Assembly: GCA_009692265.1 (NCBI GenBank)
Contig: SHZM01000028.1
Coordinates: 1-43,133, forward strand
Direction of reading: 5' to 3'
Length of the DNA stretch: 43,133 nt
From: Gammaproteobacteria bacterium
GTDB lineage: Bacteria > Pseudomonadota > Gammaproteobacteria > Ga0077536
Numbering within the stretch: position 1 is the stretch's first letter; each line of letters starts with the position of its first letter. Shown in pieces: positions 26,141 to 42,428 of the stretch. A model generated the notes under the pieces. It did no database searches. It saw only the letters and a list, made by a program, of their open reading frames with translations, and had not been told where the DNA came from. The translations under genes and the position numbers were made by a program.

Positions 26141-27310
26141 TCATCCGCAAGGTTTTAGGGCGAGGAGCTGCCACAACAGGAGGAGTCGCCTGTGTAACAG
26201 TGCTTCGACCGTCGCAATTGTCGCGCCCGCCGCAGCCAGCGTGCACACCGGTGAGTGTGCAGGAATAAGCGTGCCATCAAGCGGCTGATCGGCGGACCAG
26301 CTCGGCCAGTTTAGCGACTTTGGGATCCGAATGGGATGTGGCGCGTAGGCGACGAGATGGCCGCAAGCCTGCTCGCTATATGCTAACGGTGTCATCGCGC
26401 TGGCACGCGACGCCGCGACATGCGCTCTAAACGCGGCGGCGGGTTGGAGCAGCAGATCGCACGTAGCGGTTGGTCGAGGGTTGACGTCGACAACCTGTAC
26501 CTGGGTACCCTCGCACACGAAGTCAAACCCCCCTAAGCCGCGTAAACCACACCTCGCGAGCGCGTGAGCGTAACGCAGGCATTGCGTGCGCACGGAGGTC
26601 GGTAACTCCGCTGGAGTTACCGCCCCCGCATAACGGTACGGCGCGGTCGGCGCGGGCTGGAGATTCAAATGCCGGTTAAACCCGAGCGCAGTGACCGCCC
26701 CACCTGCGGCCAGAAAACTCAGCGAGTAACTGCCCCCACGAACGCGTTGTTGCAGATAGTCGTGAGGAGCAACGGGTGCCATCGGCGCGTAATCCCGTAC
26801 ATGTTGGCCGCCGGCACCGCCGCGGGTTTTCAGCAGCCAGGCGGATTCCGGGCGCGGGTCGTAGGCCTGTGGCGGCTGCGGGATCTCCAGTTGTGCCAAG
26901 CAGCTAGCGCGTTGCTCCGGGCACGCCATTCGCGCGACGAGATCAAGATCGCTGCCGAGCAGTTCACCGCGCGCGGCCAGTAACCGTAACACCACTGGAT
27001 GTCCCTCGAAGCCACCACCCCAAACGATAGCGATCCCTGGTGGCACGATCCGCTCAAGCAGTTCGCAGGAGGCGCTCTCGTTGAGTACGCCGCCACGGTG
27101 CGGCAACTCGTAATAAGCGGTCGCCAGCGCGCGCGTATCGCGATCGCCAAAGCAATCGGCGACCAGCGGTCGGTAACCGGCCGCCGCCGCCGCAGCCGCT
27201 AATTGGCGAGCAGCGTGCGCAATGACAAAAATCTCACCGCCGGGCGACGATCTGGCGGGCGAGTTCAAAGGCTTCCTGGTAGGCAAGGTAGATAGGCCCG
27301 GAGGCCTCAT
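26141..27310 (-). CDS. ATP-grasp domain protein of the C1 cluster (MfnD-like role possible)
   Basis: This protein begins its recognisable part with IFVIAHAARQLAAAAAAAGY and VADCFGDRDTRALA, then LLKTRGGAGGQHVRDY (ATP-binding) and VVDVNPRPTATCDLL (metal ligands), a typical ATP-grasp set. Such proteins recur next to mtdB and mch in bacterial H4MPT clusters. Methanofuran synthesis in archaea uses an ATP-grasp ligase, MfnD, for tyramine plus glutamate, so an analogous ligation is a reasonable guess. The start is unclear: ATG 27310 gives 389 residues; TTG 27268 with AGGAAG upstream is also possible. Both overlap the end of mtdB. Confidence 0.8.
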   Translation of the reverse strand: MRPPGLSTLPTRKPLNSPARSSPGGEIFVIAHAARQLAAAAAAAGYRPLVADCFGDRDTRALATAYYELPHRGGVLNESASCELLERIVPPGIAIVWGGGFEGHPVVLRLLAARGELLGSDLDLVARMACPEQRASCLAQLEIPQPPQAYDPRPESAWLLKTRGGAGGQHVRDYAPMAPVAPHDYLQQRVRGGSYSLSFLAAGGAVTALGFNRHLNLQPAPTAPYRYAGAVTPAELPTSVRTQCLRYAHALARCGLRGLGGFDFVCEGTQVQVVDVNPRPTATCDLLLQPAAAFRAHVAASRASAMTPLAYSEQACGHLVAYAPHPIRIPKSLNWPSWSADQPLDGTLIPAHSPVCTLAAAGATIATVEALLHRRLLLLWQLLALKPCG

Positions 27311-28142
27311 GCATTTGCGCGAGCAAACCCGTGTGCACGCGGTATTTAATATCGCCGACAGCCAGTGCGCCGATGCCAACACCGCTTCCAGCTGTGGTCT
27401 GCAGAGGTACCCCGTTGTCTTTTAAGCCGACGCCCTCGATGCCCGTCGGTGGTACCGCATTCGCATCGACCGCGACCCGCAGCTGTCGGGCCTTTTCGAG
27501 CGCCGCCGCCGTGATCACCCGCGCGCCGGCTTTGGCTGTGTTGAAGACTACGGTCGCTTTGTCCAGGATCGTGGCAATCGCCGCAGGTGATCCGCCAGCG
27601 ACGCCATTCACTTCAATGTTATAGCGCGAAGCTAGTGCATCAGCCGCAGCCAGCGCGGATTCGGTGCCGCGATTACTCACCAGGGTCACCCGGGCTTTGC
27701 AGGCAGCCGCGAGCAACGCCACACACGCGCCCACCGGCCCGGTGCCACCCAGGATATACACGGCTTGATCGGTGAGATCGGTTTGAAACGACTTGGCGAG
27801 CCAGCGCTCGGCGAGTGCCACCATCGCGGCCGCGGTGGTGATCGCACCACTGGGATCGGCCAGCACCGAGACCGCAAACGGCGGCACCATAGCATTGCGC
27901 GCCGCGTCCAGCATGTCGAGCGCCACACTTAAATCCCGTCCGCCGATGAAAATTCCGGTGCGTCGACCACCTTCAGGGCTACGCGAAAAGATCGTGTCCT
28001 GGGTTAACGAGTGAATTTCGTCCAAGGCCACATTGCAGTATGGAATGACCCCGTCATAGTGTGCTTCGTAGGCCATGTTGATATCGAACGGGCTGACATA
28101 TTTCGTTGGACTAAAAATATGCAACAGGTACGGGTCTTTCAT
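27234..28142 (-). CDS. mtdB: NAD(P)-dependent methylene-H4MPT dehydrogenase
   Basis: MtdB oxidises methylene-H4MPT to methenyl-H4MPT with NAD(P). The 302-residue chain has the N-terminal LLHIFSPTKYVSPFDINMAYEAHYD typical of the MtdA/MtdB family, SRSPEGGRRTGIFIGGRD near residues 52-69 and the dinucleotide-binding YILGGTGPVGACVALL near 121. Its place beside mch and fae makes MtdB more likely than MtdA. The ATG (28140-28142) lies on the edge of a 240-bp repeat element: the A and T of the start codon and all upstream sequence belong to that element. The open frame continues upstream through the element to 28307 but that part is not MtdB sequence. Confidence 0.93.
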   Translation of the reverse strand: MKDPYLLHIFSPTKYVSPFDINMAYEAHYDGVIPYCNVALDEIHSLTQDTIFSRSPEGGRRTGIFIGGRDLSVALDMLDAARNAMVPPFAVSVLADPSGAITTAAAMVALAERWLAKSFQTDLTDQAVYILGGTGPVGACVALLAAACKARVTLVSNRGTESALAAADALASRYNIEVNGVAGGSPAAIATILDKATVVFNTAKAGARVITAAALEKARQLRVAVDANAVPPTGIEGVGLKDNGVPLQTTAGSGVGIGALAVGDIKYRVHTGLLAQMHEASGPIYLAYQEAFELARQIVARR

Positions 28143-28380
28143 CCTAGAAACCTCAGTTGAACGGCCCGTGCAGTGTGTTTCGTGGGGTGCAGGGCAAGGC
28201 GCGATGAGGAGTAATAGCGAGCTATTGCGACGAGTTGCAACGCCGCCATGCACGCCACGAAACACACTGCACGTGGCGCAGCGACCCTTAACCAAAAGGT
28301 GACGCATATTTGAATGATAGATCCCATTCCAGCCATACGCTTACTCACGTGTTTAAGCGGTCAACTGAGGTTTCTAGGAT
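28141..28380. mobile_element. 240-bp MITE-like element with 20-bp perfect terminal inverted repeats
   Basis: The ends 28141-28160 (ATCCTAGAAACCTCAGTTGA) and 28361-28380 are perfect 20-base inverted repeats. Inside is a long imperfect hairpin: 28168-28185 pairs perfectly with 28255-28272, and pairing continues in part to the centre near 28220, where AATAGC and GCTATT close the loop. There is no transposase gene. The structure is that of a miniature inverted-repeat transposable element, or of a structured repeat family. No clear target duplication was seen. It separates the RFAP synthase gene from mtdB and forms the mtdB 5' leader. Confidence 0.85.
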
Positions 28381-28477
28381 CATACCGTCCTCCAGACAAA
28401 GTGATACCGCATGACTAAACCTGCACGCCTCGCACAGGACAAGTGAGGGCTAAGCCACCTCGATTGACTCAGACAAC

Positions 28478-29443
28478 TTAGCTTCCAAGCAGCACGCTAG
28501 CGCCATGATTACAACCCGAGACGAGTTGCAGGCGTAGGCCCGCTTGCGCACCGACGACGTCTTCACCGAACTGCAGCATGGCCGTGGCCAGCGCCTCGGT
28601 GGGGGCAAAGACGAATGCTGTCGGACCCCACGAACTTTGACCCGCCCCGCGGATACCGAATTTTCGCGTCAATTTTGCAACGATCTCGGCCACGCGTGGA
28701 CTGGTGTAATGGGTACCACCCTGAACCGGGGCGAAGTGCCGGCCGATGCGAGCTTGGATCTCGCCCACACCGCGCTCGAATTGGGTGAAATCCGAATCCG
28801 CGATTGCCGGGAGTAATCCGACCAGGCACCAACGCGCGATTTCGGCCGCAATCTGAGGTGACATCGGTGGGAGCGCGGCAAAGGCATTGCGCTCCGCTGC
28901 GCCATGCAGCCCCTGCGCCTCATCATCGAAGATCAACAGGATTCGCCAAAGGTCTGGAAACTGGAGTCGAGACAACACGGGGGCAGTGGTATTCGTCTTG
29001 GCCCGACCACCGTCAACGATGAAACCACCACCCTCAAACGCCGCGATTCCGATCCCACTGCGTTCGCCACGACCGAGCGCCGGTGCCAGCGCGCGCGGAG
29101 TCATGTCGTGGGCATAGAGGCGCGCACACGCCGTGGCGACCGCGAGGCCGAGTTGGGTGCCAGAACCCAGCCCTGCATGACTGGGCGGTAGCTGTTCAAC
29201 CTGCAAGGCCACCCCTCGCGTCTCTCCGAGCGCCTGTAATGCCAGACTGGCGCTCGACGCAGCCCGCGCCGATTCCACGCCGCGTACTTCGAGAGTCGCG
29301 GCCGGACGCGCGGTTAACACGGCATCAAGGCCCGTGATGGTTAAACCGAGGCTGCCAAAGTGCCGATCGAGGTTTCCGTTCAAATCGACGAAGCCAAGAT
29401 GCAGGCGTGCTGGCGCGGCTATTTGAATACTTCGCTCAGTCAT
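28478..29443 (-). CDS. mptG: Beta-ribofuranosylaminobenzene 5'-phosphate (RFAP) synthase
   Basis: RFAP synthase joins 4-aminobenzoate to phosphoribosyl pyrophosphate with loss of CO2, the first committed step of H4MPT synthesis. The 321-residue protein has a GHMP-kinase-like fold: IAAPARLHLGFVDLNG at the start, QLPPSHAGLGSGTQLGLAVA near residue 85, and GIRGAGQSSWGPTAFVF near residue 260. Length is normal. AAGG lies upstream of the ATG at 29443. It is the first gene of the minus-strand run to fae, and the fhc operon starts 186 bases away on the other strand, so both share a divergent promoter region. Confidence 0.93.
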   Translation of the reverse strand: MTERSIQIAAPARLHLGFVDLNGNLDRHFGSLGLTITGLDAVLTARPAATLEVRGVESARAASSASLALQALGETRGVALQVEQLPPSHAGLGSGTQLGLAVATACARLYAHDMTPRALAPALGRGERSGIGIAAFEGGGFIVDGGRAKTNTTAPVLSRLQFPDLWRILLIFDDEAQGLHGAAERNAFAALPPMSPQIAAEIARWCLVGLLPAIADSDFTQFERGVGEIQARIGRHFAPVQGGTHYTSPRVAEIVAKLTRKFGIRGAGQSSWGPTAFVFAPTEALATAMLQFGEDVVGAQAGLRLQLVSGCNHGASVLLGS

Positions 29444-40837: not shown

Positions 40838-41572
40838 CTATTTCCGAGGCGTGATTGACTTAAGCTGCAGTACCTCATGAATCAACGGCGGTGCGCCAAC
40901 GCCCTCCCCTGGCACGCTCGTTTCGAGCTTATACAGATAACCGGGCAGCTCGTCCGAGACGATTACCGAATAGACTTTATCCGCAAACCGTTCGAACTCG
41001 GCGCGTTTCGGATCGTTTACGAAAGGTGAGAACTGAATATGCTTTCCTTGATATTTCCTGCCGTCGAATTCGATTTGGATCGGCTGCACTGTCGCGCTCT
41101 CGACTAATGCAAATTTGATCCGACGCTGAAAGTAGCGCCAACGTTCGCGCGCCTTCCCGTCAGGATCTGTCAGCCGATTCATCTCGTAGACGTCGCCTTG
41201 GAAGTAAATCTTTAACACCGGATTGACGTCGGTCTTGTCCTCCGGCGCAATCGGGAACCGTCGCTCACCGGTAAAAAACTCAATGGCCGCAGCCTTCATT
41301 CCGTCCGGGTGAAGCTTTGTAACTCTAAACACGATCGAATCAGTAAAGCCCTTTTCGAACGACCCTGATTTTTCGAAAGAGTAAGTCAGCACCGTGGGTT
41401 CGGTGACGGTGGCAAGCTGATCGCCGAGCCACAAGATTGTTTCGGCTTCGGAGAATTTAACCTCGTCGGGAGCCGCGGACGGTGCGCTGGTCTCCGTTGC
41501 CTGCGCCGCGCCGAGAAACATCGCTAACAGCGCGGTTACCGCGCCGGTCCATGCACCATCAATCATCATCAT
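40838..41572 (-). CDS. Exported protein of unknown function in a methanol-oxidation context
   Basis: I do not recognise the family. The start lies in a run of three ATG codons (41572, 41569, 41566) after GAGAGG, overlapping the end of the XoxJ-like gene; the last ATG has the best spacing. The first 25-30 residues (IDGAWTGAVTALLAMFLGAAQA) are a signal peptide. The mature part of about 210 residues is rich in beta-strand-like, charged sequence, with LTYSFEKSGSFEKGF, KIYFQGDVYEMNRL and ARERWRYFQRRIKFAL, and has no cysteines, so it is probably a periplasmic protein. Coupling to xoxJ suggests an accessory role for methanol dehydrogenase or its electron transfer. Confidence 0.7.
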   Translation of the reverse strand: MMMIDGAWTGAVTALLAMFLGAAQATETSAPSAAPDEVKFSEAETILWLGDQLATVTEPTVLTYSFEKSGSFEKGFTDSIVFRVTKLHPDGMKAAAIEFFTGERRFPIAPEDKTDVNPVLKIYFQGDVYEMNRLTDPDGKARERWRYFQRRIKFALVESATVQPIQIEFDGRKYQGKHIQFSPFVNDPKRAEFERFADKVYSVIVSDELPGYLYKLETSVPGEGVGAPPLIHEVLQLKSITPRK

Positions 41573-42428
41573 CCTCTCGCGTCGCACTTGGCAGTAATTC
41601 AAGCCGTGGCACGCCGTAATCGTCCAGTATCTGGTTAATCTCGGCATGGTTTCTCTCTATTAGTCCATCGATTTGCTTTTCCCACGCGGTGTCCGGGTGA
41701 CGCACTGCCATCGCGATTTGATAATCAAATTTAAGACCAGACTCACTAGTGAGGGGAATGACGACGAGCGTGTGTTCGGTAATTTTCTTGCTCAAATACC
41801 CTGCAATTGGCCCCCACACGAACGTGAGGTTCACTTTATCCTGGAGCAAGTCGTTCTCGATCACGTGCCCAGGGCCTTCGCGCGCATCGCCGGACATGAT
41901 TGGGAACGCCGTCGCGTTATCGATCAGCCCTAAATTGTAAATCCACTCGGTGGTGGGGCCTTGATCCCAGATCCCGATCTTCAAGAGCCTTTTCTGATCT
42001 TCGGTAAGGTTCTTTAAATCATTCTGGGTTTTGATGAAGTCCAGCCTGCGGCCCTTCACATACACCATCGCCCACGACGAGCGTAGGTAGGGCCGCGTGG
42101 TCGCCGCCAATTCGAAGTTATCGATCACGCCCATGACTAAATCGCATTTATAACTCCCGTCTTCGGTTTCATTATTCTTGAGGGTGGCGCGGATGAAACC
42201 CATGCGCTGAGGGAACCAAGTGAATTCGAGGGGTAACTTCAGCTGCTTGGAAAATAACTGGGCGATCTTATTTTCGTACCCGGACTCATCCTTGTCCGAC
42301 ATCGGCAGATTATAGGGCGGCGCGCAGACCTTCAGAACTGTTCGGGCCGGTAGCTCGGTCGCAGACAGTTCCAGCGCCGCAACCAGTAGAATTGCCAGCC
42401 CGCACCATCTTGGTCTTCTAGTTGTCAT
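41559..42428 (-). CDS. xoxJ: XoxJ/MoxJ-like quinoprotein dehydrogenase-associated binding protein
   Basis: The 289-residue protein has a signal peptide (WCGLAILLVAALELSATELPA) and a periplasmic solute-binding fold: LKVCAPPYNLPMSDKDESGYENKIAQLFSKQL, the FTWFPQRMGFIRATL segment, CDLVMGVIDNFELAATTRPY and the late VWGPIAGYLSKK. This matches the group found next to PQQ methanol dehydrogenase genes, where XoxJ/MoxJ helps dehydrogenase maturation. Between xoxJ and moxJ the choice is from context only; no dehydrogenase gene is in the window. ATG 42428 was chosen because it starts the signal peptide. The gene ends in four Asp codons that overlap the next start. Confidence 0.85.
   Translation of the reverse strand: MTTRRPRWCGLAILLVAALELSATELPARTVLKVCAPPYNLPMSDKDESGYENKIAQLFSKQLKLPLEFTWFPQRMGFIRATLKNNETEDGSYKCDLVMGVIDNFELAATTRPYLRSSWAMVYVKGRRLDFIKTQNDLKNLTEDQKRLLKIGIWDQGPTTEWIYNLGLIDNATAFPIMSGDAREGPGHVIENDLLQDKVNLTFVWGPIAGYLSKKITEHTLVVIPLTSESGLKFDYQIAMAVRHPDTAWEKQIDGLIERNHAEINQILDDYGVPRLELLPSATREDDDD

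Follow-up and report, generated by a model that had tools for sequence, protein, structure and literature searches.

A miniature inverted-repeat element, probably derived from an IS1380-like insertion sequence, at the start codon of mtdB

Correia/NEMIS, ERIC, RUP and MITEAba12 are small, multicopy elements that are bounded by terminal inverted repeats (TIRs) and fold when transcribed, and bacterial MITEs are often co-transcribed with their neighbours (PMC2229807, PMC4133298, PMC6382973). Mostly TA termini are described for the reviewed MITEs (PMC2229807) and 9-bp repeats for MITEAba12 (PMC6382973). For the IS1380 family of insertion sequences, the IRL of ISEcp1 is given as CCTAGATTCTACGT (PMC7864471) and IS1247 is listed with a 5-bp repeat (PMC3281130, Table 2). 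The element analysed here, which lies at the start of mtdB, is likewise small, multicopy, TIR-bounded and able to fold. However, its family differs from those MITEs in having a 5-bp NTNAN repeat that is able to contain start and stop codons. Titles and abstract openings of the papers found by literature search describe neither an IS1380-derived MITE nor a MITE with a duplication by which a start codon is restored, which is a weak absence.

The window, which is the whole stretch of 43,133 nucleotides that was analysed, is one of the 118 contigs of a 3.4-Mb draft genome (G000). It carries mtdB, near which lie genes that pass the curated cutoffs for mch, fhcA and fhcD and one that scores lower than the cutoff for fhcB. 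Most of the nearest named mtdB records are metagenome-assembled Gammaproteobacteria, which points to an uncultured gammaproteobacterium. ATGAA, the site of the mtdB start codon, was probably the target of an insertion by a miniature, non-autonomous derivative of an IS1380-like insertion sequence. This reading draws on a 236-bp repeat family, its 5-bp NTNAN duplication, element-free loci in relatives and an insertion sequence with a matching end in another genus. The features of the locus are the following.

27234..28142, minus strand: mtdB, methylene-tetrahydromethanopterin dehydrogenase, 302 aa; intact open frame; Pfam Mpt_N 113 bits
28138..28142, minus strand: near target-duplication copy; ATGAA on the mtdB strand; contains the mtdB start codon
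28143..28378, minus strand (given in mtdB sense): MITE proper, 236 bp; boundaries from 29 two-ended copies and the 5-bp duplication
28143..28160, minus strand: mtdB-proximal TIR; TCAACTGAGGTTTCTAGG on the mtdB strand, a CCTC variant of CCTAGAAACGGCAGTTGA
28162..28195, minus strand: internal hairpin arm, mtdB-proximal
28245..28278, minus strand: internal hairpin arm, distal
28361..28378, minus strand: distal TIR, CCTAGAAACCTCAGTTGA
28379..28383, minus strand: far target-duplication copy; ATGAT on the mtdB strand; begins the leader ORF
28478..29443, minus strand: upstream gene, beta-RFAP synthase family; TIGR00144 142.5 bits (cutoff 113.5), NF040726 172.2 (below its cutoff of 328)

The inverted repeat formed by 28141-28160 and 28361-28380 is perfect over 20 bp and extends to 23 nt at 96%, and the internal inverted repeat formed by 28162-28195 and 28245-28278 covers 34 nt at 88%. 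Both had been reported in the first-pass annotation and are confirmed here, as is the position of the element exactly at the mtdB start codon, where it stands between mtdB and the RFAP synthase gene. That annotation proposed a MITE-like element of 240 bp. A multicopy, TIR-bounded insertion is indeed present, but its length is 236 bp, as comparison with other copies places the ends at CCTAG...CTAGG, namely at 28143-28378. The two outermost base pairs at either end are part of the target duplications TTCAT (28138-28142) and ATCAT (28379-28383). The A and T of the mtdB ATG, formerly taken as the first bases of the element, are most likely host bases of the 5-bp duplication, judging from the comparison of the 29 copies. 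The fold of 28140-28383 on the mtdB strand has a z score of -9.98 and that of 28143-28378 on the opposite strand one of -11.4; none of 200 shuffles was equally stable in either case.

Other genomic copies, which the first-pass annotation had suggested looking for, are numerous. The element gives 23 matches in its own genome at E<=1e-3, a count that includes the copy in the window itself, incomplete copies and a few hairpin arm-to-arm matches, and TIR-like sites with at most two mismatches number 45 in G000 versus 2 for a reversed control. At the same threshold, with partial matches included, there are 26 matches in the sister genome G005 and one in the sister genome G001. Matches occur in five of 36 genomes of the taxonomic family (the order-level set consists of the same 36 genomes), those in G020 and G027 being merely 24-40 bp long, and exact family ends occur in three, all of one genus. 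The 29 two-ended copies (ends at most 300 bp apart) comprise 13 in G000, 1 in G001 and 15 in G005; 26 one-ended copies are listed as well, some of them internally unrelated. With its short length, its 18-bp TIRs, its lack of a transposase gene and these 29 two-ended copies in three genomes, the element is a MITE. CCTC/GAGG ends occur at 2 of the 45 sites in G000, both in the window, and are thus unique to the window copy in that genome. In G005, the CCTC-ended variant accounts for 5 of 32 exact TIR sites, and one G005 copy, L111, shares 91% identity with that of the window. With copy L008 as the query, a distant-mode search of plasmid and phage collections found nothing, and the exact 18-base family end had no match in viral contigs.

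A candidate parent type is found in G027, which belongs to another genus of the same taxonomic family. A 1,637-bp insertion sequence in this genome has an end on the side of the transposase start that is identical to the family end at 17 of 18 positions; 14 of 18 positions agree at its other end (4 mismatches), and the sequences on its two sides, TTCAA and TTAAT, differ from one another. Its 468-aa transposase matches PF13701 (DDE_Tnp_1_4) with 58.7 bits (cutoff 34.7), and its best NCBIfam match is IS1380 (NF033539) at 123.5, which is below the cutoff of 180. Transposase relics are present in G000 (80% identity over 64 aa) and in G005 (75%, residues 298-383), with weaker matches in G004 and G007. 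No intact partner transposase was found in the 118-contig assembly of G000, only the relic. Inside the element, 6 of 22 copies match the G027 insertion sequence better than all 200 shuffles, and copy L003 shares 18 of 20 bases with its transposase start. In the window copy, the match to this start is no better than in shuffles (122 of 200 as high).

28287..28306, minus strand: position that matches an IS1380-like transposase start in other copies; unrecognisable in the window copy, 18/20 in L003

In its 17/18 end and its 5-bp duplication, the MITE fits a derivative of the IS1380 family. The IRL of ISEcp1, CCTAGATTCTACGT, and the MITE end, CCTAGAAACGGCAGTTGA, both begin with CCTA, and the 5-bp repeat is shared with IS1247, so that an IS1380 origin of the family would agree with both sources (PMC7864471, PMC3281130). 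Unlike IS1380-family elements and the G027 insertion sequence, the MITE is 236 bp long, has no transposase gene and contains a long internal hairpin, and its right part gave no convincing match to the G027 insertion sequence.

The mtdB ATG at 28142-28140 on the minus strand agrees with homologous starts in relatives. The mtdB upstream region in relatives, a comparison that had been proposed together with the original claim, is free of the element: the family profile matches none of 26 mtdB loci of named genomes, two of them archaeal, and none of 6 loci of genus relatives, and these 26 + 6 empty sites are all from other species. Among the 24 mtdB loci listed, the match begins at ATG, GTG or TTG in 22 and a few residues later in the other two (L084 and L085). 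In G001 and G005, the start codon (GTGAAAGAT and TTGAAAGAT, respectively) lies 19 and 11 bases past the stop of the upstream gene. Because element-free relatives have a homologous start, the mtdB start codon most likely belongs to the gene itself, is older than the element and was copied with the target; it would have survived because the insertion duplicates five target bases, so that the mtdB strand now reads ATGAT...ATGAA. Three mtdB loci (L072, L074 and L077) come from records titled Klebsiella pneumoniae and are 61-74% identical to the window mtdB. The coordinates of L072 on its contig identify it as the mtdB locus of G005, in the window's genus, so at least that title looks wrong.

The consensus fold of the family is much stronger on the strand opposite the mtdB sense (-71.5) than on the sense strand (-45.3), as G-U pairs at several stem positions of the former correspond to C-A in the latter; five stem columns are of this type in most of the 22 aligned copies. 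Covariation exceeds both shuffle and slide controls, although the alignment tested is also the one that yielded the structure. In this family, RNA transcribed in the direction opposite to mtdB may thus be under structural selection. The very stable fold and the covariation across copies would also suit a conserved cis-acting RNA of mtdB that is not an insertion at all. However, such an RNA is extremely improbable, as the other mtdB loci examined lack the sequence, which recurs at many unrelated sites, and 27800-28700 has no Rfam match at the gathering threshold. The inner stem of the window copy (28162-28278) has 24 pairs, of which 23 are Watson-Crick and none is G-U, whereas the other 21 aligned copies have 4-6 G-U pairs. 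On the simplest reading of these alignments, one arm of the window copy would have been rewritten from the other by template-switch (quasi-palindrome) correction, selection being a conceivable alternative. The regularity of this copy may explain why it had been singled out initially.

The target-site duplication is 5 bp long with the motif NTNAN. When registers 2-8 were tested on the 29 copies with shuffled flank pairs as the control, register 5 alone gave a strong excess of matches: positions 1, 3 and 5 agree in 18, 19 and 20 of 29 copies (11.5, 9.3 and 11.4 expected from shuffling; P 0.0035, <0.0005 and 0.001), and the other registers gave only two single positions at P<0.05 (0.046 and 0.026). 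Position 2 is near-invariantly T and position 4 near-invariantly A. It is from this excess and these two bases that the 5-bp NTNAN duplication follows. All 5 bp agree in 8 of 29 copies and the central 3 bp in 18. Because the window's own duplication copies, ATGAA and ATGAT, differ at one of five bases, a duplication of just 3 bp (TNA) next to a variable A/T element terminus has to be weighed. The mtdB start codon would then be an element/host hybrid, with its A as the last element base and TG from the duplication. The identical central TGA/TGA in the window copy and the more frequent agreement of the central 3 bp (18/29 versus 8/29) speak for it. However, the excess at positions 1 and 5 (18 and 20 of 29 versus about 11.5 shuffled), the full 5-bp repeats of L110 (CTTAC/CTTAC) and L113 (ATAAC/ATAAC) and the 5-bp repeat listed for IS1247 in PMC3281130 make it quite unlikely.

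Within the 5-bp duplication, the central base in element sense is a purine (NTRAN) in 22 copies and a pyrimidine (NTYAN) in 4 (P=0.0005), 3 of the 29 copies being left out as mixed. The 17 usable single ends split 10 to 7, which brings the pooled total to 32 versus 11 (P=0.002). Eight copies lie at a codon that begins or ends a frame no shorter than 100 codons, all in gene orientation; copies at starts are L001, L007, L020 and L111, and copies at stops are L111, L113, L114, L118 and L119. Because the split weakens to 14 to 4 (P=0.03) without these eight copies, the orientation bias may in part reflect tolerance and not a preference of the transposase.

Besides the window copy, three copies lie at or near gene starts, two of them at stop/start junctions. 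L020 lies at the start of an S-methyl-5'-thioinosine phosphorylase gene. At this site, all five genus relatives compared have an ATGA overlap between the upstream frame and the phosphorylase gene; in L020, the upstream stop is in one duplication copy and the start in the other, and the upstream gene has an internal stop. The CCTC-ended copy L111 (G005, contig C73) lies between a YbiB-like and a tetrapyrrole-methylase gene, the latter of which we take to be cobA-like. One duplication copy holds the TGA of the YbiB-like frame (350 open codons) and the other the presumed start of the methylase, the frame of which closes after 119 codons; this gene may be broken, or else misassembled. Given this early end and the internal stop before L020, some of the junction genes may be broken. 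L007 lies directly before an rlpA-family gene, the true start of which may be Met6 because its orthologues align from residue 7 or later. Among the frames that end at stop-codon copies, only that of L111 is identified as a gene.

The exact hit on a start codon would not need special targeting, because NTNAN, mostly NTRAN in sense, includes NTGA starts and TAA/TGA stops; such codons stay intact because of the 5-bp duplication. A tolerated NTNAN site coincides with a start codon with a probability of 0.062 (WTNAW: 0.11), as estimated from a 343-kb sample (300 kb + window) with 340 genes from an in-house rough script and from frames of at least 100 codons, which leaves out L121 (67 codons), L005 (61) and L099 (58). 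Start hits are seen in 4 of 29 copies (P 0.10 for NTNAN, 0.40 for WTNAW) and, within the genome of the window, in 3 of 13 (P 0.042 and 0.17). These hits are no clear excess over tolerated sites, so a special preference for start codons is not supported; they are common because of the motif NTNAN itself. A transposable element of this type can thus enter a start codon, or the junction of two operon genes that overlap, with neither being broken.

At the right end of the element, one frame continues outwards into the target duplicate; 21 of the 22 aligned copies keep it open over 25-77 codons, and L002 over 5. Through this open frame, genes next to a copy could gain in-frame N-terminal extensions in this family. 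At mtdB itself, this frame is open from 28307 through into the gene, which would permit an MtdB with a 55-residue element-encoded N-terminal extension from the ATG at 28307. However, the homologous ATG is used as the start in relatives, no strong Shine-Dalgarno sequence was seen upstream of 28307 by direct reading, and the in-house gene-calling script picked 28142, making an extended MtdB very unlikely.

Insertion into ATGAA would also have changed the sequences from which mtdB may be translated. A staggered cut across ATGAA would have left one copy on each side, so that the near copy would remain the mtdB start codon. The presumed original ribosome site stayed with the far copy.

28151..28154, minus strand: GAGG in the TIR, candidate Shine-Dalgarno sequence; 8 nt before the mtdB ATG; anti-SD duplex -6.3 kcal/mol
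28345..28383, minus strand: 12-codon leader ORF made by the insertion; spans the distal TIR
28389..28393, minus strand: GGAGG, presumed original mtdB Shine-Dalgarno sequence, displaced; anti-SD duplex -9.3 kcal/mol

As read in the sequence, GGAGG is now about 240 bp further from mtdB and ahead of the 12-codon leader ORF, and mtdB would now be translated from the weaker GAGG of the element end. A GAGG from the TIR ahead of mtdB had been suggested in the first-pass annotation and was found 8 nt before the ATG. Expression of mtdB may depend on the element. An ordinary family end forms an anti-SD duplex of -1.8 kcal/mol, compared with -6.3 for the GAGG end. Because the CCTC variant also occurs in G005, the GAGG end need not have arisen at mtdB, and an adaptation made at this gene is an unnecessary assumption. 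The locus is a natural test case of a C1-pathway gene without its own Shine-Dalgarno sequence, placed behind a structured, transposon-derived leader.

In RNA that reads through from upstream, the terminal repeats would pair, GAGG would be buried and translation of mtdB would be low. In the model of this RNA, the terminal repeats are fully paired and GAGG has a P(unpaired) of 0.00. Escape from low translation would occur if ribosomes on the leader ORF opened the distal repeat or if transcripts started inside the element. With the leader ORF held open, the modelled P(unpaired) of GAGG rises to 0.44-0.70, and the mtdB ATG pairs elsewhere (0.00-0.02). The model thus permits translational coupling from the leader ORF to mtdB without proving it. 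In erm-type control, a leader peptide is combined with a sequestered Shine-Dalgarno sequence. The arrangement at mtdB is similar in that a short leader ORF overlaps one strand of a stem and the other strand hides the next Shine-Dalgarno sequence; it is dissimilar in that it would have arisen by insertion and has no known inducer. A one-step translational switch, in which the displaced Shine-Dalgarno sequence and the duplicated start would give the leader peptide, the terminal repeats the hairpin, and CCTC/GAGG a hidden mtdB ribosome site that opens solely upon leader translation, is compatible with the modelling and is rather unlikely overall. If it were true, similar switches could arise again and again from this family at the boundaries of operon genes, because the target motif holds start and stop codons and insertion is mostly co-oriented.

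A promoter inside the element is a somewhat likelier possibility, still a doubtful one, in which the mtdB transcript would lack the distal repeat and GAGG would be largely free. GAGG accessibility is mixed in modelled transcripts starting inside the element: those from 28330, 28300, 28260, 28200 and 28190 leave it partly unpaired, whereas those from 28378 or 28230 bury it, and a scan of 28100-28520 for promoters of the sigma-70 type, the only type covered, gave 0 sites (0.3 expected). The displaced stronger Shine-Dalgarno sequence and the weaker new one, buried in the model, would also suit an insertion that lowered mtdB expression, with the gene now being lost and its function perhaps covered by an mtdA-like gene elsewhere. 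However, the mtdB frame is intact, and mtdB shows no faster decay, because its identity to G001 (75.8%) and G005 (74.5%) is like theirs to each other (74.2%), and such a loss appears improbable. A distant MtdB homologue with 33% identity beside fchA, which could serve as such cover, is encoded on contig C50. This homologue (L058) lies at about 41525-42304 of that contig in G000 and adjoins the methenyltetrahydrofolate cyclohydrolase gene fchA; we take it to be mtdA-like, a name that comes from no family model.
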